Of a stretch of DNA of 64,000 bases, positions 27,326-44,755 are shown in pieces. Position numbers and translations under genes: made by a program. Numbering within the stretch: the stretch's first letter is position 1; every line of letters begins with the position of its first letter. Below the pieces are notes generated by a model. That model was not told the DNA's origin, did not search any database, and saw only the letters and a list, made by a program, of their open reading frames with translations. The DNA is from Pseudophaeomoniella oleicola (lineage: Eukaryota; Ascomycota; Eurotiomycetes; Phaeomoniellales; Phaeomoniellaceae), in contig QWDQ01000055.1 of the NCBI GenBank assembly GCA_003868215.1, positions 62,001-126,000 of the forward strand, written 5' to 3'.

Positions 27326-27670
27326 ATGTTTACGAGGGCGACATTGGTGCTTTTGGTGTGTGGGGCTGTGCCGGTGCTATGTGCCGTGGTCGGCCAGCTG
27401 TTTAGATATTTGCACTGGTGGGAGGAGGAGAGGAGGGGGAGGAGGAATCTGAGGGAGATGGAGTGGGAGTGGTGGGAGTGGGCGAGGGAGTTGGAGGGGA
27501 GGTTGGCCGAGATGCAGAGGGAGCTGGCTGATTTGATGGAGTGGTGGGAGGATGAGGAGGAGAAGGAGGAGAAGGAGGAGGAGAAGGAGGAGGAGGAGGA
27601 GGAGGAGGAGGAGGAGGAGGAGGAGGAGGAGGAGGAGGAGGAGGAGGAGGGGGTAAGGCCTGGCGCCTAG
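27326..27670 (+). CDS. Possible small membrane-anchored acidic protein (114 aa)
   Basis: An intronless frame opens with a hydrophobic segment (LVLLVCGAVPVLCAVVGQLF), then a Trp/Glu/Arg-rich helix (EMEWEWWEWARELEGRLAEM) and ends in an almost pure Glu/Lys run encoded by a GAG/GGA repeat. The design, one N-terminal membrane helix with a charged cytosolic or luminal helix, is plausible, yet half of it is microsatellite-derived and the other strand of the repeat is also open (poly-Pro). I keep it as a weak candidate. Confidence 0.3.
   Translation: MFTRATLVLLVCGAVPVLCAVVGQLFRYLHWWEEERRGRRNLREMEWEWWEWARELEGRLAEMQRELADLMEWWEDEEEKEEKEEEKEEEEEEEEEEEEEEEEEEEEEGVRPGA
27554..27650. repeat. GAG/GGA trinucleotide repeat tract
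   Basis: A purine-only tract of about 97 nt, largely (GGA)n with AAG interruptions at its left end. It codes poly-Glu in one frame of the plus strand and poly-Pro on the other. Such purine mirror tracts can form triplex DNA and are prone to length change. Confidence 0.9.
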
Positions 27671-32321: not shown

Positions 32322-35300
32322 ATGGCCTCTCTTTCGCATTCGTTGCGTACTGTCATTTCCTTCCTCCTTGTCTTTTGTACCTTGGATACTTTTGCTCGAA
32401 GCATTATTACAGGTAAACCCAATGCAGTCATCAAGCCCTACAAGCGAGAGCTCCTACAGGATATTGTATGGTCCGATTCCACGAACAATCATGACAGCTA
32501 ACTCTCATAGGTGACTTGGGACGAACACTCTCTATTTGTCCATGGTGAACGGATCTTCTTCTACTCCGGTGAATTTCATCCGTTCAGATTACCAGTGACG
32601 GACTTGTGGCTTGATGTCTTTCAGAAGATCAAAGCTCTTGGCTACAATGGTGTCTCCTTCTATACAGATTGGGCACTGTTGGAAGGAACACCAGGAAACT
32701 TTACCGCTGAGGGCATATTTGCTTTGGAGCCTTTCTTCGAGGCGGCAACTCAGGCCGGTATCTACCTCCTCGCTCGTCCGGGCCCCTACATCAATGCAGA
32801 AGTAGCCGGCGGCGGGTTCCCAGGCTGGCTGCAGCGTGATCCAGCAATCCTGCGAACCAATGAAACCATGTACGAGACGGCGACTGATAATTATGTTGCC
32901 CACATCGGCTCTATTATAGCGGCAGCGCAGATAACAAATGGCGGACCCGTCATCCTTTTACAACCCGAAAACGAGTATACGAGTGCGGCAACTTGGGTCA
33001 CATTTCCTGACTATGATTACATGGCATACGTTGAGCAACAGTATCGTAACGCAGGAATTGTTGTCCCGTTCATCAGCAACGACGCGTCCCCCAGAGGCAT
33101 CTTTGCTCCTGGGCAACCCACTTCTGTGGACATCTACGGACATGATGGATACCCCCTTCGGTTTGACTGTAAGTTCAGTTCACTCCACACCCATCGGAGG
33201 GTTGCTGACCCAATAGGCGCCAATCCCTATACTTGGCCCATCGGTAATCTGCCCACGACTTGGCGTGCTTTGCATTTAGAACAGAGTCCCAGCACGCCTT
33301 ACTCGTTGGTCGAATTCCAAGGTGGTTCTTTTGATCCCTGGTCAGTAGCTGCCTATCTCTCATGGCATCATTGTATTCACGTCCATATAGGGGAGGTCTT
33401 GGTTTTGCGCAATGTGCCGAGCTCTTGAACCATGAGTTCGAAAGAGTCTTTTACAAGAACGACTTCAGCTTCGGTGTTACGATTTTCAACGTTTATATGG
33501 TATGAATTCTTACGACCATAGTAGGCAATGCTGATAAACTACAGACGTATGGTGGAACTAACTGGGGAAACTTGGGTCACCCTGGTGGCTATACATCCTA
33601 CGACTATGGTGCCGTCATTGCAGAAGACCGCACAATAACACGTGAGAAATATAGTGAGGCCAAACTGGAAGCGCAATTCCTGCAAGCGTCTCCTGCTTAT
33701 CTGACGGCCACTCCGGGAAATCTGACCAATGGAACCTACGCCACCAGCGAACTTTCTGTGACTCCCCTCTTTGGTAATACGACAAACTTCTATGTAGTCC
33801 GCCATGCCAACTATGCGTCGCTTGACTCGACTTCTTACTACCTCACTGTTCCCACAAGTGCAGGGATGGTCACCATTCCCCAGCTTGGCGGGTCCTTGAC
33901 CTTAAGCGGTCGTGACTCGAAGATCCATGTAACAGACTACGATGTTGGTGGTATCAATCTTATCTATACGTCTGCAGAGATCTACACCTGGAAGACGTCT
34001 GGTGCCAAGAACGTCCTGCTGGTGTATGGCGGCGCTGATGAGACCCATGAGATGGCATTCCCTACGTCTTTGGGCAGGCCGACCGTTGATGGCAGTGGAG
34101 TTTTACTGTCGACGAATGGTTCTACGACGATTGTCAATTGGAATGTTAGCCCGACTCGGCGAGTACTGCATTTCGGGGATAGGCTGGATGTCTATCTACT
34201 CTGGCGTAATGATGTGTACAACTATTGGGTATTGGAACTTCCAGCTGCTGCTCCCATTGGCAATTTCACGTCCCCTTCGAAGTCCTCTATCATCGCAAAA
34301 GCTGGCTATCTCCTTCGTACTGCTTCCATAACTGGCAGTACACTCTACCTTACTGGCGATCTAAATGCTACGGCCTCGTTGGAGGTGGTGGCGGGGGCTC
34401 CAAATGTCACATCTGTTTACTTCAATGGGAATAGACTCTCCGTCTCACGTACAAATAGCAGTACTCTCACGGCGTCGCTCACGTATAGTCCTCCCAGCAT
34501 TGAGATCCCAGCTCTTTCCAACCAAGTCTGGAAGTATCTTGATTCTCTGCCGGAAATCCAGGCCTCATACGACGATTCCTTATGGCCTGTCGCTAATCAC
34601 CCTACTACTAACAATACTGTTCAAAATCTGACAACACCAACGTCCTTATTTGCTGATGATTATGGATATCATACTGGCTCTTTGATATATCGCGGCCACT
34701 TCACCTCAACTGGCAACGAATCGACATTCTATCTGTCTGCCCAAGGTGGCAGTGCATTTGGTTACTCAGTCTGGCTCAATTCTACCTTCATTGCATCTTG
34801 GAACGGCTACGATGCAGCATCCTCCGGAAACGATACGTATCCTCTGCCAACGTTGACAAGTGGCAATACCTATGTCTTGACCGTAGTGATGGACCATATG
34901 GGACTCGATGAAAGCTACACCCCCGGTTACGACGGGATGAAAGATCCGCGGGGTATTCTCGACTATGCATTATCGGGCCATCCTCAAGCTGACATTGTTT
35001 GGAAGCTCACGGGAAATCTCGGAGGCGAGCAATACCAGGATCATGTCCGTGGACCGCTCAACGAAGGAGGCTTTTACATCGAACGTCAAGGATATCATCA
35101 GCCTGAACCGCCTTCGACCAATTGGACCACAGCCTCTCCATTCACTGGCCTGTCTTCCGCCGGCATTGGCTTCTACACGACAGCATTCGATCTTGATATT
35201 CCTTCAGGCTACGACGTTCCAATGAGTTTTTCATTCACCAACACCACCAGCGGGTCTAACGGAACAACGCCGCATTATCGTGTGCAGCTATTCGTGAACG

Positions 35301-35593
35301 GTTATCAATTCGGAAAATACGGTAAGTAATAACCCCAAGAGAGTAATACCATCTCGCTAACATCCATCTTCTCAGTCAACAACGTAGGCCCTCAAACCTC
35401 CTTTCCGGTCCCGGAGGGTATTCTCAACTACAATGGTAGAAACCACATCGGCCTAACGCTGTGGTCTCTCGATCCCAATGGCGCCAGATTGGGAGCTCTG
35501 GATCTGAACGTTGACATGGTTATTCAGTCGGCGTACCTGAAGCCGGCCCTGTCGCCGCAACCTGCATGGACGGCCAGGTCAGGTGCTTACTAA
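32322..35593 (+). CDS. Secreted beta-galactosidase, GH35 (LacA type)
   Basis: Family GH35 enzymes hydrolyse terminal beta-galactose from plant cell-wall glycans. Six exons (32322-32465, 32511-33168, 33217-33340, 33391-33499, 33545-35321, 35376-35593) give 1009 residues, matching the about 1000-residue fungal LacA enzymes. A signal peptide ([16 protein letters not shown]) opens it. The TIM barrel has [11 protein letters not shown]-like [12 protein letters not shown], the acid/base Glu in [10 protein letters not shown] (about residue 203) and the nucleophile in [13 protein letters not shown] (about residue 300), then [20 protein letters not shown]. Beta-sandwich domains follow, rich in N-glycosylation sites, including IYRGHFTST and [18 protein letters not shown]. 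Every splice junction keeps frame. An expected role is feeding on plant pectin or galactan side chains. Confidence 0.95.
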
Positions 35594-36114: not shown

Positions 36115-36285
36115 TTACATGACGGTACATGAATAGAAGGGTTGAGATTCGGTTTCGGAATTCATGACGGTGCATGAATAGAATGGTTGAGATTCGGTTT
36201 CGGATTTCATGACCGTACAGCTATAAAAAGGCTGGGATTCGGAGTTCATGACGGTGCATGAATAGAAGGGGTGTTGGGCGACCAT
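36115..36285 (-). CDS. Candidate multi-copy CaaX (lipopeptide) pheromone precursor, 56 aa
   Basis: A 56-residue frame starting in a good context (ACAAGATGG) with no signal peptide. After MVAQH it repeats the octapeptide PFYSCTVM four times, at residues 6-13, 19-26, 34-41 and 49-56. The spacers are NSESQ, KSETESQ and NSETESQ, and the stop follows the last CTVM directly. CTVM at a C terminus is a CaaX box, with Met favouring farnesylation, as in ascomycete a-factor-like pheromones, which also lack signal peptides and leave through an ABC exporter. Copies 2 and 3 differ at seven of 24 bases of the octapeptide, all synonymous and including AGC versus TCA serine, which indicates selection on the peptide. 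No dibasic Kex2 site is present, so release of the internal copies is unexplained. Related h-type precursors with repeated CTVM/CSVM are known from Trichoderma. A TATA-like TTCATAAATA lies about 165 nt upstream. Confidence 0.72.
   Translation of the reverse strand: MVAQHPFYSCTVMNSESQPFYSCTVMKSETESQPFYSCTVMNSETESQPFYSCTVM
36118..36270. repeat. Imperfect tandem repeat encoding the CTVM peptide copies
   Basis: Four direct repeats of 39-45 nt, each containing CATGAC(G/C)GT(A/G)CA on the plus strand. Copies 3 and 4 are nearly identical; copy 2 has drifted at silent sites only within its octapeptide. The repeat is the coding part of the gene on the minus strand, not an independent satellite. Confidence 0.85.
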
Positions 36286-37343
36286 CTTGTCTTTCGTCTT
36301 AGAACTTTTTTTGAGATTCGATTTATTGGGGATTGTGTGTGTGTGTGTGCGTGTATGTGTGTACAAAGTGGGATTTGCTTGTGATATATGAAGAGAGACA
36401 AGAGAGGAAATAGGCAGAGATGGGAAGGGCGGGAAGGAGGTATTTATGAAGGAAGAAAAAAAAGAATCAAAGCTTCCACGGTGCCACAGGGGATATAGAC
36501 AAGAAAGGGACTTCGAGGCTTTGAAGAAACAACGAAAGATTGCCACGGGTATACTTCGAAACACCGGAAGTGTGATCGATCACGAGGTTCGATTGAGGGC
36601 CTTCTGCGATGGGAGGGCAAGCAAAACATCGTACTCCGTGGTTGAAGGATTCTTGATATTGTTCATGTTAAGCTTAGTATTGTTGTGCTCCCTCCTGGAC
36701 AAACAAAGAAGAGTGAGTACGCAAGGTCGGGGTCTGGAAATGAGCATGATATCATGTTGTGATGAAAGGGAACAGCGCGTGAGATGGGGAGTAACGCGAA
36801 GTAATATGACGATATGGATGGCCATGCGATGGAGGTGTAGAAACGGGAGTTGAACTGGCACTCATTGGTTTTGTCGCAGCAGAAGAGGGTAGGATTTTTG
36901 TAACACTTTGCGGCAAACTTATACAGAGCTCCGAGGACAGAGTAGGCGGTACTTGGATCTCCGGCTGGCCATCAGAATAACAACAGACATGTGACAGACC
37001 AATCTTGCAGATAGCAGATAGCTTGAGCTACGTGAAGTGAAGTCCGAGCCTGGGCAGGTATACTCATGTCAATGTTGAGATATACCTACCAACACTTACA
37101 TGTCAACGGTGAAGAGGGCAATGACAGTTCCACGAAGCTGTCGTCGGCAACGATGCTTGGCGATCCGATTCGGGTAACTGAATAGGAGAACAATAGTAAA
37201 GGGCATTCTTTGTCAAAGTACCATGTACCTCGTATTGTTCATGTGTACAGGAATTCTCGTTGGTCAATTATACTCAATCTAGAATCTAGTGAAAGGGAGC
37301 CTGCATATACGTCAGTTTCAGCTCTAACACACACTTGAGTATC
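36286..37343. other. Leader/promoter of the peptide gene and 3' region of cyanase
   Basis: On the minus strand this runs from the cyanase stop to the peptide-gene start. A GT/GTGC dinucleotide repeat at about 36335-36362 would sit in the untranslated leader. A TATA-like TTCATAAATA (minus strand) is at 36441-36450. No further gene is supported. Confidence 0.5.
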
Positions 37344-37968
37344 TTACCATTTTCCTCTCAAAGTGATAACAGCCCAGTTGTTACCATCCTTGTCAACTTC
37401 CTTCTCTACCTTGGTCGAGAAAGAAATGGCGCTCATGATGCCATCACCGAATTTCTCGTTCAAGACGGCCTTGTAGGCATATCCATAGTTCTGGACGATC
37501 TCGTACAGACGGTAGATCAAGGGTTCCTTTGGTGGCATCTCAATGGACTTTCCACGGTCTGGGAAACCGCTCAATTGTGCTTCCAAGGTGGCTTTATCTA
37601 CCTCGAGAAAGGTGGAAAGCTTGTCGATATCCTCTGGCGATGCGCGGGCCTGACCATAGAACATCGCAGCAATAGCTACCTCATTGCGACCCAATTCTTG
37701 GGCGATTGTCTCGAAGGATACTTGTTTCTTGGCCTTTGCGGCGAACAGGGTTTCTGAGGAGCCGGGCAGCTTAGGGTGTTGCGATACCTGGTGTTGTCAG
37801 CAATGCTACTCGAGGTCATGAGTGTTCTGGGAAGCTCACGTCAAGCGTGGTGAGCGACATGTTGGACTTGTAGCGACGAGCGATAGGCTGGACAGCAGCG
37901 AAGGGTGTCGTGGGGTGCAATTTGGAGGCGTGTGTAGCTACACGAAGAGATGAACGGAAGAGAGACAT
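37344..37968 (-). CDS. Cyanate hydratase (cyanase) with N-terminal extension
   Basis: Cyanase converts cyanate and bicarbonate to CO2 and ammonia (via carbamate), detoxifying cyanate and releasing nitrogen. Exons 37968-37840 and 37787-37344 give 190 residues. The helical N-terminal domain ([34 protein letters not shown]) and the dimer C-terminal domain ([20 protein letters not shown]) are complete. By alignment to the bacterial enzyme the catalytic triad is Arg136, Glu139 and Ser162, with the 3- and 23-residue spacings preserved. Bacterial cyanase is about 156 residues; the extra 36 here are basic, Ser-rich and acid-free ([16 protein letters not shown]...ARRYKSN), like a mitochondrial presequence. 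An internal Met (MSLTTLD) would give the usual cytosolic length, so dual localisation by two starts is possible. Confidence 0.95.
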
Positions 37969-39040
37969 GGTGAGATAGAGCTTGCCTATGAAGGAAAGCT
38001 GAAAAGAGGAAGTCAATTAGAAGAATTGGACTCGCGTGTCAAGGTCAAGAGCGCAATTGGTCGAAACCCTTTCTTTCTGTCCGATGTTCGCAGTGAAATG
38101 GACATGGATATACTTCGGCAGTCTTTCTATCATGACGATCAGTGATGGGATGCGGGGAAGGCTGAGATGTCCTTATGTCATAACTCTGAGCTTTACCTGA
38201 GTGAGATATCTTGCCAAGGAGTATTCTTAACTGTCATTTGATTCTAAGGTCGATCCTTTAACCATCCCAAGCAGATCTAGACAGCGCCTTTTCCTACCTA
38301 GGGAGGTGAGCATCCCTATCGTCTTCAAGTGCCGCCGTAGATCTTTTGATAAGCATGCAGAAGATCTGTCTAGTAGTACTACGTAGTAGATACAGAGTAG
38401 CTGGAGAGTACTGTAGCAATCAGTGGTTTCTTGGTAATACTTTAGCACAGGTTACGTGATAGGCGAACTCTCGGTAATTCTCTAGGGCTTCCTCAGCTTC
38501 ATGGTACTACGATACACCGAGACAGCCACTTCCTCCCAATCTGTTCTAGTTATATCACGTCCCCCACCTCAGACTTTATGGGTTAAGTAATTACATGGAA
38601 ATAGTTACCGTACCACAACTCTTGAATGGATCAGCTTGGGATTATTTACCATCAGACAAAATACGCACAGATGCTATATAGGAAGTTGCAACAAGCCAAT
38701 TGACTAGGAAATCCCCAGATTCATGATTGAAGGAATCATGACGGCCGAACACGATATTGGGCATCCAAACCACGGCTGATGTGTTTCAGCCCTGTACAAG
38801 TAATAGCTGAGCTCTCCACCAATGATGCATGCCAATGTCTGCCCCTCGTCGTAACCTGCTTTCGCCGAGCTGACTGCTCTTTCCAAGACGGCAATGTGAC
38901 TCTCTAGCATTTGGTTTCGCGAACGTTATTCCTGCAACATATTGGAAGCTTCCTGTGACATCTGGCTTATTCTTCGTTTCCTCCTTTTTCATCTCTCCTG
39001 TCGACGTGCTTCCAGAATCTAATCAGTAACACCCCGCAGT
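37969..39040. other. Divergent promoter region, cyanase / phospholipase D
   Basis: 1.07 kb with a copy of the TAGTACTACGTAGTA palindrome at 38373-38388. No gene is seen; several short open frames have no coding character. Confidence 0.5.
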
Positions 39041-42000
39041 ATGTCAAACGGAGATGAGGGGTTGGCTTATGGCGACTACCATGGAGATCATGACGATGTG
39101 AGAGACCTCTCCTCCATCGATAGAGCTGATGAATGACATGTCTTGGTCCAGAAGCAGGAATCGGGATCATTCTTTGGACACTTGACCAGTGGAATACGGC
39201 ATCTCAAGTCAGAGCTTGGAGGCAAAGTCGAGGAAGAGAAGAAGACACACGTAGCCGGCGCGGCAGGGTTGTCGGGACACAGATATGGAAGCTTTGTTTC
39301 TCCCAAAGATGGAAATGACGTGAAGTGGTATGTTGATGGTTGTGGGTATATGTACGCCGTCTCCCGAGCCTTGGAGGCTGCTACAGAATCCATCTGGATT
39401 TTAGACTGTGAGTCTGTCGGTATATACTCTCATGCATCAACTCACTTGCACCAGGGTGGCTATCGCCGGAACTGTATCTACGACGCCCTCCTTCCAAAAA
39501 TGAGCAGTATCGACTGGATCGGATGCTCAAAGCAGCTGCTGAGCGCGGTGTGAAAGTTAGCATCATAGTGTACAAAGAGGTAAGGACTCCAGTCTCTGTG
39601 ACAGCACCCCTTTCATGACTGGATCAAGGCTAAAGCGAGTTCATTCATCTAGGTAACGCAAGCTTTGACCCGTAAGTACCTCAACCCTACTCTTCCAGAC
39701 TATCTGCATTCATTCCTGCCGTCGTCTACCGACGAGTTTACTTCTCTCCTTGTCCGCCTTGGTCTCATGGCAACCACCACTGCCATACAATACATGGAGG
39801 AAGGAAATCCACTGATAGCACCACCAATTACAGTATCTTCAAGTCATACCAAACACGCCTTGGAAGATCTGCATCCCAACATTGCAGTCTTCCGTCATCC
39901 TGACCATCTCCCGGACAAGCAAACCCTTGCTTCTTCGATCATGTCTTCGTTCCAGAATCTAAAGCTCGGGGCGTCATCGATAAGCAAAATGTCCAGTGAT
40001 ACTCTCCAGGGCCTGTATGGCATCACAGATGATGTCATTCTGTATTGGGCTCATCACGAGAAGCTGTGTCTGGTAGACGGACAGGTCGCGTTCATGGGAG
40101 GTCTTGATCTTTGTTTTGGTCGATGGGATACGAATCAACATTCTATCGCGGATGCTCATCCCAGTGACCTCAATGCCATTGTCTATCCTGGGCAAGATTA
40201 CAACAACGCACGCATCGCAGACTTTGACAGTGTTTCCCACTGGGATCAGAACAAGGTTGACAGAAAGCAGTATTCCAGGATGGGTTGGTCTGACGTAGCC
40301 ATGAGTTTGCATGGACCTTGTGTGCAAGACCTTCGAAAGCACTTCGTTGACCGGTGGAATTTCGTTTACGAAGAGAAGTACAACGTTCGAGAGGATAAGA
40401 GGTACTACAAATTGTCCCTCGATGGTCACATATACAATCAAGCAATCATTGCGGAGAATGACAAGCCGCCGGTACATCATCACTTCCGCGATAAATTCCT
40501 CCATGATTTCAAGGAACCTTTCGAGGGACACGCCTACGATATGCGGCAGCGCTTTGGCAACCATTTTGGTCAACACCGAGGCGGCATACCATGCCAGCTC
40601 GTCCGAAGCTGTACCACGTGGAGCAATGGCACGCCGACGGAGCACTCAATCCAGAATGCATATATCGACGTAATCGAGAACAGTCAGCATTTCGTTTACA
40701 TTGAAAATCAGTTCTTCATAACAGCGACGGATAAAGATCAGAGACCTGTGGAAAACAGGATAGGAGAGGCAATAGTCAACAGGATTCTCAGAGCTGCATC
40801 CGCAGGGGATAAGTTCAAGGTCATTGTCCTCATTCCTAGCGTTCCCGGGTTTGCAGGTGATTTGAAAGATGATGCTGCTCTCGGCACCCGCGCCATTATG
40901 GAGTTTCAGTATCATTCAATTAATCGGGGCCATGGTCATTCAATCATGGAAAAGATCGCGAAAGCAGGGTATGATCCGAAAGACTATATTCGCTTCTACA
41001 ATCTCAGGAACTATGATCGCATCAATGCTAGCAGTACCATGAGTCAGATCGAGAAGCAGAGCGGTGTAGGCTATGAGGAAGCCCGCATGCAACATGATGA
41101 ACAAGTTGGTGCTGGCTATGCAGGTCAAGGTGAGGACGTTACGAAGAAAGATTCTCTCTTCGATCGTTATCAACGTGCCGCTGGTGACAGCAATGCTAAC
41201 GCTCGGTGGGACTCGGTGGCTGAATGTTACATGTTGAATGGCCCAGATATCCGGGATGTGCCATGGGATGGACCCGGTGATCTATCTGAAATTGATGCCT
41301 TTGTCAGTGAAGAGCTTTACATTCATTCCAAGGTACGGAGCAGGACTCGGTCGTTCTAACTTATCATACTAACGTAAGACAGATTCTTGTTGCCGATGAT
41401 CGCATTGTTATCTGCGGATCTGCCAACCTGAATGACCGATCTCAACTCGGAACGCACGATTCCGAAATCGCCTTGGTCATCGAAGATCCCACTCCTGTCG
41501 ACTCTGTCATGAATGGCCAGCCATGGCAAGCGTCCCGCTTTGCTTCATCATTGCGCAGGCAGTTGTTCCGCAAGCACATTGGTCTGCTACCGGCCCAAGA
41601 TATGGAAAAACCGGATGCGAATTTTGAGCCTGTGGGAGTTGCTAATCAATACGATTGGGGCTCCGAGGAGGATCACCTCGTCGAAGATCCGCTGTCTCCT
41701 CAATTTGACGCTTTGTGGACTGGTCGTGCTCGGGTCAACACCGAAGTTTTCAGGCAGATCTTCCATCCTGTACCAGATGATACCATTCGTACTTGGAAGG
41801 ACTACGAGAAATTCTATGAGTACTATTTCGAGAAGGCTGACAAGGAAGCTGATGACAAGGAAGGCAAAAGCAAGCCGGCCCGCTATGAATGGGGACATGT
41901 CATTCGTGAAAACTTCGCTCCTGGAGACGAGGGTCTTCGACAGGTGAAGGATCTGTTGAGTCAAGTCCGGGGTACATTGGTGGAAATGCCGTTGCTTTTC

Positions 42001-42069
42001 CTGGACAAGGAAGACATTGCTAAAACAGGAGCAAGCCTAAATGCCCTGACAGAGCCTATCTATACATGA
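39041..42069 (+). CDS. Phospholipase D (fungal PldA-type)
   Basis: Phospholipase D hydrolyses phosphatidylcholine to phosphatidic acid. Six exons (39041-39097, 39152-39407, 39455-39579, 39653-39671, 39834-41332, 41383-42069) give 880 residues. Exon 4 is only 19 nt (VTQALT). The first HKD motif is HHEKLCLVDGQVAFMGGLDL; the second is created by splicing at IHSK|ILVADDRIVICGSANLND. Between them are the family's GWSDVAMSLHGPCVQDL, VYIENQFFITAT, and IRFYNLRNYDRIN. No PX or PH domain precedes the catalytic core, so this is the short fungal class rather than the SPO14 type. The intron after exon 4 is 162 nt, a multiple of three and without stops, so its retention would add 54 residues; the GTAAGT donor and the family alignment support splicing. 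Confidence 0.94.
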
Positions 42070-44641: not shown

Positions 44642-44755
44642 CGACACGAACAGGATTTGAACCTGTGCGGGCGAACCCAACAGATGTTTCGATTCGTATT
44701 CATTTACTTGAGAGAGGATTCGAGTCTGTCGCCTTAACCACTCGGCCATCGTGTC
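44642..44755 (-). tRNA. tRNA-Ser(CGA) with 33-nt intron
   Basis: The acceptor stem GACACGA pairs with TCGTGTC and leaves discriminator G. The D arm is GCCGAGTGGTTAAGGC; the anticodon stem ACAGA/TCTGT flanks loop CTCGAAA, giving anticodon CGA. A long variable arm (GGGTTCGCCC) marks a class II serine tRNA, and the T arm reads ACAGGTTCAAATCCTGT. The 33-nt intron at 44686-44718 follows position 37 and contains TCGA near its 3' side, able to pair with the anticodon as is usual in pre-tRNA. Spliced length is 81 nt, without encoded CCA. Confidence 0.95.

Follow-up and report, generated by a model that had tools for sequence, protein, structure and literature searches.

Genes for a-type pheromones escape annotation because they are very short and variable, and the locus described here raises the question of whether one of them has been overlooked. 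In the 64,000-nucleotide stretch of DNA that we analysed (hereafter the window), a small open reading frame (ORF) encodes the same octapeptide four times and ends directly behind the last copy. If the product is a pheromone precursor, it also poses a question of processing, as it carries four CaaX motifs, of which just one is at a free C terminus, and lacks a Kex2 site.

Results

Structure of the reading frame

Translation of the minus strand from 36285 to 36115 yields the 56-residue product MVAQHPFYSCTVMNSESQPFYSCTVMKSETESQPFYSCTVMNSETESQPFYSCTVM, which starts with MVAQHPFYSC, contains PFYSCTVM as four exact copies at residues 6, 19, 34 and 49, and has its stop directly behind the fourth (CTVM-TAA); read on the plus strand from 36115, the same DNA contains three stops. 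A preliminary description of this locus had given the correct coordinates and left the strand unstated, and its account of a 56-codon gene with four PFYSCTVM units, Ser/Glu-rich linkers and an end at the last CTVM agrees with our translation. Within the 154-codon open frame, no in-frame ATG lies upstream of the ORF start. Inspection by eye revealed no hydrophobic leader at the N terminus and no KK, KR, RK or RR pair in the 56 residues, in keeping with the earlier statement that a dibasic Kex2 site is missing. Every unit has one Cys, and the residues right after the three internal CTVM motifs are Asn, Lys and Asn, each followed by Ser-Glu, with no Kex2 pair. A Ser/Thr-rich N-terminal part is a common, non-defining trait of a-factors; here the N terminus MVAQH is not rich in these residues, and the Ser/Thr/Glu-rich portions are the linkers. 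Positions of the units and of the neighbouring genes are collected in Table 1.

Table 1. Features of the candidate precursor and of its surroundings, in window coordinates.
Feature	Position	Strand	Remarks
Candidate multi-copy a-type pheromone precursor, 56-codon leaderless ORF	36115..36285	-	ATG 36285-36283, TAA 36117-36115
Unit 1, PFYSCTVM	36247..36270	-	MVAQH in front
Linker NSESQ	36232..36246	-	
Unit 2, PFYSCTVM	36208..36231	-	Silently diverged copy
Linker KSETESQ	36187..36207	-	
Unit 3, PFYSCTVM	36163..36186	-	
Linker NSETESQ	36142..36162	-	
Unit 4, PFYSCTVM	36118..36141	-	Sole unit with a free C-terminal CaaX (CTVM-stop)
Cyanase (cyanate lyase) gene	37279..37968 (approximate)	-	PF02560, E 7.1e-31; upstream, same strand as ORF
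GH35 beta-galactosidase frames	32511..35329	+	Convergent with ORF
Phospholipase D-like frames	39653..42069	+	Beyond cyanase

Evidence for coding and constraint

Across the four DNA copies of the unit there are seven variable sites, all of them silent. Copies 1, 3 and 4 differ mutually by 1-2 bases, whereas copy 2 differs from copy 3 by seven bases in five codons, including a TCA/AGC serine switch (AGC in copy 2), and the protein is unchanged, which bears out the claim of seven silent positions made in the preliminary description. With seven substitutions relative to copy 3 there are 756,929,448 possible sequences, of which 423 retain the peptide, a fraction of 5.6e-7 when all substitutions are taken as equally likely. 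With seven diverged bases and zero residue changes, copy 2 appears to have escaped recent conversion and yet to be under constraint at the protein level. This silent-only divergence argues that the internal units matter, although it does not prove that they are released. The repeats are spaced by 45, 45 and 39 bases, all multiples of three, so the reading frame is kept.

Among the 740 small frames of the window (first ATG to stop, 15-100 aa), seven have a broad CaaX end and one, the ORF itself, has a strict one; an 8-mer is present three times in two of these frames, namely the ORF and a poly-Arg frame. In 20 first-order Markov sequences, strict CaaX frames arose by chance (mean 0.65, maximum 3) and repeat frames did not (0), so that a CaaX end carries little weight by itself; strong evidence comes from the repeats, from the silent base changes and from where the ORF lies. 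A small frame at 27552 of the window, on the plus strand, is an arginine run and a simple-repeat artefact.

Codon choice was also examined. The synonymous-codon score of the ORF is 3.1, compared to a mean of -0.8 (sd 1.3) for a base-composition null that reached this value in 3 of 2000 draws; draws from a coding model built on ten long frames of the window (5978 codons) average 0.7, and as 97.85% of them are at or below the score of the ORF, the latter is extreme there too. Synonymous codon choice in the ORF resembles that of neighbouring frames more than base composition would predict, but because the test treats the repeated units as independent, which they are not, we regard this as supporting evidence only. 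RNA structure is ordinary (z 0.63), with a fold as good or better in 141 of 200 shuffled sequences.

The cyanase locus

The cyanase gene upstream of the ORF is the one match in the whole assembly. From its stop to the ATG of the ORF there are 993 bases if the gene is read as spliced (stop at 37279) and 1058 if unspliced (frame end at 37344). Its approximate span in Table 1 runs from the first ATG of the frame to the stop at 37279 through one last intron, read by eye; the in-frame TAA in the match is, as we read it, the start of this last intron.

According to Schmoll et al. (2010, PMC3068285), a-factor genes have cyanate lyase as their neighbour in N. crassa, M. grisea and F. graminearum/G. 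zeae, and they follow it on the downstream side in C. globosum and P. anserina. In Nectria haematococca (Fusarium solani), the same paper describes a CaaX ORF with repeated motifs that is flanked by cyanate lyase and EBP2, and it reports that gene order at this locus is not strictly kept and that the arrangement was lost in Trichoderma. In the genome studied here EBP2 is on another contig than the ORF, which means that the locus shares only the cyanase half of the Sordariomycete linkage. Even so, the interpretation of the ORF as a pheromone precursor put forward in the preliminary description is supported, and it is strengthened by the same-strand cyanase, a piece of evidence which that account did not contain.

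Cyanase and the phospholipase D-like gene (37279-42069) are divergent neighbours. Among the best 120 of 3385 proteins related to the latter, identity is 74-75% at the top and 58-62% for Chaenotheca, Circinaria, Agyrium and Elasticomyces; the Chaenotheca protein, phospholipase-like throughout, is recorded as "Cyanate hydratase", perhaps because cyanase is its neighbour in that genome as well. Farther along, a tRNA match at 44642-44755 on the minus strand covers 114 bases against a model of 71 positions and thus probably contains an intron.

In the 1055 bases upstream of the ORF, TGAAACA is absent from both strands. TGTTTC occurs at -278 and -246, CTTTGT at -423 and -83, and ACAAAG at -928. CAAAG elements have been reported for hpp1; we do not draw on the elements seen here in the argument.

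Mating genes of the host genome

The host is an ascomycete that we take, on thin evidence, for a member of the Pezizomycotina, perhaps belonging to neither Sordariomycetes nor Leotiomycetes; a search with an exact 18-base 5.8S word, intended to place it by rDNA, matched nowhere. The assembly (26.1 Mb, 112 contigs) contains matches to both receptor genes: STE3, on contig C48 (E 3.3e-51), and STE2 (E 3.1e-28), whose one in-frame TGA is taken as an intron. On contig C30, SLA2 (ANTH and I/LWEQ domains), an HMG-box gene and an APN2-like endonuclease follow each other in this order. This HMG-box gene, which was chosen by eye among nine HMG-box matches, looks MAT1-2-1-like and the locus would be of the MAT1-2 type; the names MAT1-2-1, APN2, COX13 and APC5 were likewise assigned by eye. 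An HMG pair on contig C74, considered as a MAT candidate, is an ordinary HMG protein judging by eye from its residues. A search of the assembly for MAT-alpha, performed with no positive control, returned nothing. Between SLA2 and the HMG-box gene there is a 241-codon open frame (L076, 7765-8487 on the minus strand of C30), possibly specific to the MAT1-2 idiomorph.

Motif patterns for alpha-factor genes gave 4, 7 and 36 single matches, compared to 0, 5 and 22 in the respective backward controls. Since repeated units were seen in none of the matches inspected (4/4, 4/7 and 20/36), an alpha-factor gene was not identified by this approach.

Search for relatives and for other CaaX candidates

A search limited to proteins of 31-98 aa that have three 5-residue words in common with the ORF product returned no homologue, and the ORF was the one match in its own genome, with no precursor paralogue. 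DNA patterns for the octapeptide hit 36 bacterial or archaeal stretches and, in viral contigs, 12 stretches, each with a single match, which we take as chance; a longer pattern gave 0 matches in viral contigs.

A pattern for CTVM followed by TRR matched at five places of the host genome, versus four in the backward control. Besides the ORF, these are two places where the codon is TGG and not a stop (L007, L008), one at the end of a 173-residue stop-to-stop frame (L005), and one in the frame of a 47-residue mini-protein with a Ser/Thr-rich start and the tail CFGCDCCDTECDCCIIPCTVM (L006, at C73:16433). Two relatives of L006 were found: that of Aspergillus spectabilis aligns with 66% of the query at 68% identity and ends in CTIM, and that of Penicillium olsonii, which is labelled metallothionein, aligns with 98% at 65% and ends in CTVM. 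L006 thus apparently belongs to a conserved family of Cys-rich CaaX proteins that should be told apart from a-factor candidates: its tail follows the pattern CFGCDC.D.ECDCC, whereas the four-copy ORF has no such tail and one Cys per unit. Its conservation looks unlike that of a pheromone, which would make it a poorer a-pheromone candidate than the four-copy ORF.

Discussion

Based on these results, the four-copy ORF is very probably an a-type pheromone precursor. It is no longer than 100 aa, leaderless and has a CaaX motif before its stop, with STE3 in the genome and cyanate lyase nearby, even though this position is a trait reported in several Sordariomycetes and does not strictly define a-type precursors. 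Our interpretation relies on the exact repeats with a CaaX stop, the silent divergence, the spacing, the codons, the location next to cyanase, and a genome that has STE3, STE2 and a putative MAT1-2-type locus. It is also in line with the three-copy HPP1 of Trichoderma reesei, which is reported to be essential for male fertility. It is weakened by the lack of a homologue in our searches, of a GY motif and of an identified alpha-factor gene, by a cyanase link that is not universal, by EBP2 being elsewhere, and by a second small CTVM protein.

The multi-copy architecture is already known from the h-type precursors of Trichoderma and Fusarium, from Huntiella and from Rhodosporidium. The ORF is hence less new than the preliminary description implied, given that multi-copy a-type precursors have been published for the first three of these. 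What it has in common with the h-type precursors (HPP1 of Trichoderma reesei and its Fusarium relatives; PMC3068285) is a short leaderless chain with a repeated C[TS]VM unit whose last copy closes the C terminus, though the copies number four as opposed to three; the h-type-like ORF of Nectria haematococca resembles it also in being located at the cyanate lyase locus (PMC3068285). CTVM matches the h-type consensus, (LI)GC(TS)VM, but the Cys is preceded by Y-S instead of [LI]-G, which is why we class the candidate with the a-type precursors and call only its architecture h-like. T. reesei HPP1 is reported to have two Kex2 sites, while the ORF has none, although a site found only in T. reesei HPP1 does not define the class; likewise, hpp1 of T. 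reesei lies outside the cyanase locus, unlike the ORF, about 1 kb downstream of cyanase.

The single-copy a-factors of Sordariomycetes (N. crassa mfa-1, M. grisea, C. globosum, F. graminearum ppg2) share with the ORF a short CaaX precursor and the cyanate lyase neighbour, but the two sequences printed in PMC3068285 have one unit rather than four, and that of M. grisea ends in HYCVIM instead of FYSCTVM. In Huntiella and other Ceratocystidaceae, a-factors have near-identical repeated units ending in CpaX/CaaX and no signal peptide, as does the ORF, and a hydrophobic N terminus (PMC10182648, PMC13037118). The Huntiella units, however, are 12 residues long with Arg first, several gene copies exist, and the neighbours named in the available text of these two papers are tubulin, a nucleolar protein and laccase, with no mention of cyanase. 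Putative a-factors of Leotiomycetes are close to the ORF in size (45-64 aa) and end most often in CTVM (PMC10569646); in the a-factor section of that survey a GY motif near the C terminus is usual among 87 a-factors (common, not strictly defining), in place of which the ORF has FYSC, and repeated units are not mentioned. Precursors of rhodotorucine A in the basidiomycete Rhodosporidium toruloides (Akada 1989, via PMC3068285) combine tandem units, CaaX-like spacers and several mature peptides; the peptide is different and the likeness is one of architecture, with no homology claimed.

The evidence that the ORF lies outside the fungal classes with described a-type precursors is thin. The 2023 survey called the Leotiomycete a-factor the first outside Sordariomycetes (PMC10569646), and ppgB, an a-factor-like pheromone of Aspergillus fumigatus, which belongs to neither class, has since been reported (Krappmann et al. 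2025, Curr Biol). For Aureobasidium, the genome paper (PMC4227064) reports receptors and, in its available text, no a-factor gene. Among the titles and abstracts that our literature searches listed, none dealt with an a-pheromone precursor from a lichen-forming class, which is no proof of absence.

Other explanations must be weighed. That the ORF is a non-coding minisatellite which happens to be open in one frame is highly improbable: a tandem repeat it certainly is, and strict CaaX frames are expected by chance at about 0.65 per 64 kb, but such an origin is at odds with divergence that is exclusively silent, with spacing in multiples of three, codon choice, a CaaX motif placed at the stop and the adjacency to cyanase. 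It is improbable, if less so, that the gene encodes a small prenylated peptide with a role other than mate recognition, such as an autocrine growth signal or a membrane-anchored peptide. Autocrine pheromone signalling has been described in Fusarium oxysporum, and the Cys-rich CTVM protein of this same genome implies that CaaX mini-proteins need not all be pheromones; the cyanase-linked position, the presence of STE3 and a repeat architecture like that of known a-type precursors nonetheless speak for mate recognition.

A third explanation overlaps with the pheromone interpretation and, albeit unlikely, deserves more weight than the previous two. Farnesyltransferase requires a free C-terminal CaaX, and it could be that only the terminal unit is farnesylated and secreted, as in a single-unit a-factor, the internal copies being by-products of tandem duplication that conversion, or a role as spacer, keeps alike. 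The 1-2 bases that separate copies 1, 3 and 4 are what recent duplication or conversion would leave, but the seven bases by which copy 2 has diverged with no residue change suggest constraint. Fruiting persisted in Trichoderma when one or both Kex2 sites of HPP1 were changed, so that release of internal units by Kex2 is not essential there, and a rhodotorucine-like route with unknown enzymes was proposed as one possibility (Schmoll et al., PMC3068285).

For the four-copy ORF as a multi-unit pheromone precursor, we lean towards the internal units being released as well. In such a scheme, MAT1-2 cells would make the leaderless precursor in the cytosol, where the terminal CTVM would be farnesylated, TVM removed and the cysteine carboxymethylated. 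Cuts in the Asn/Lys-Ser-Glu linkers might then expose the internal CTVM ends one by one, and each precursor could give as many as four PFYSC-farnesyl peptides, to be exported by a Ste6-like transporter and sensed by the STE3 receptor of a MAT1-1 partner. More tentatively still, and with somewhat more doubt than conviction, we propose that the linkage of cyanase and a-pheromone gene, perhaps together with the multi-copy form, is older than the divergence of several classes of Pezizomycotina; the internal units would in that case be cut next to Met-Asn/Lys without Kex2.

The main value of the ORF lies in the cyanase landmark and in its clean four-unit architecture. A clear repeat-bearing case beside cyanase, maybe in another lineage, offers a cheap positional test for many fungal classes, and such a test could yield ligands for STE3 receptors that currently have none. 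If the ancient linkage is true, cyanase would serve as a landmark for tracking down a-pheromone genes still missing from lichen-forming and other classes that have been little studied, even where the peptide itself is beyond recognition by sequence.
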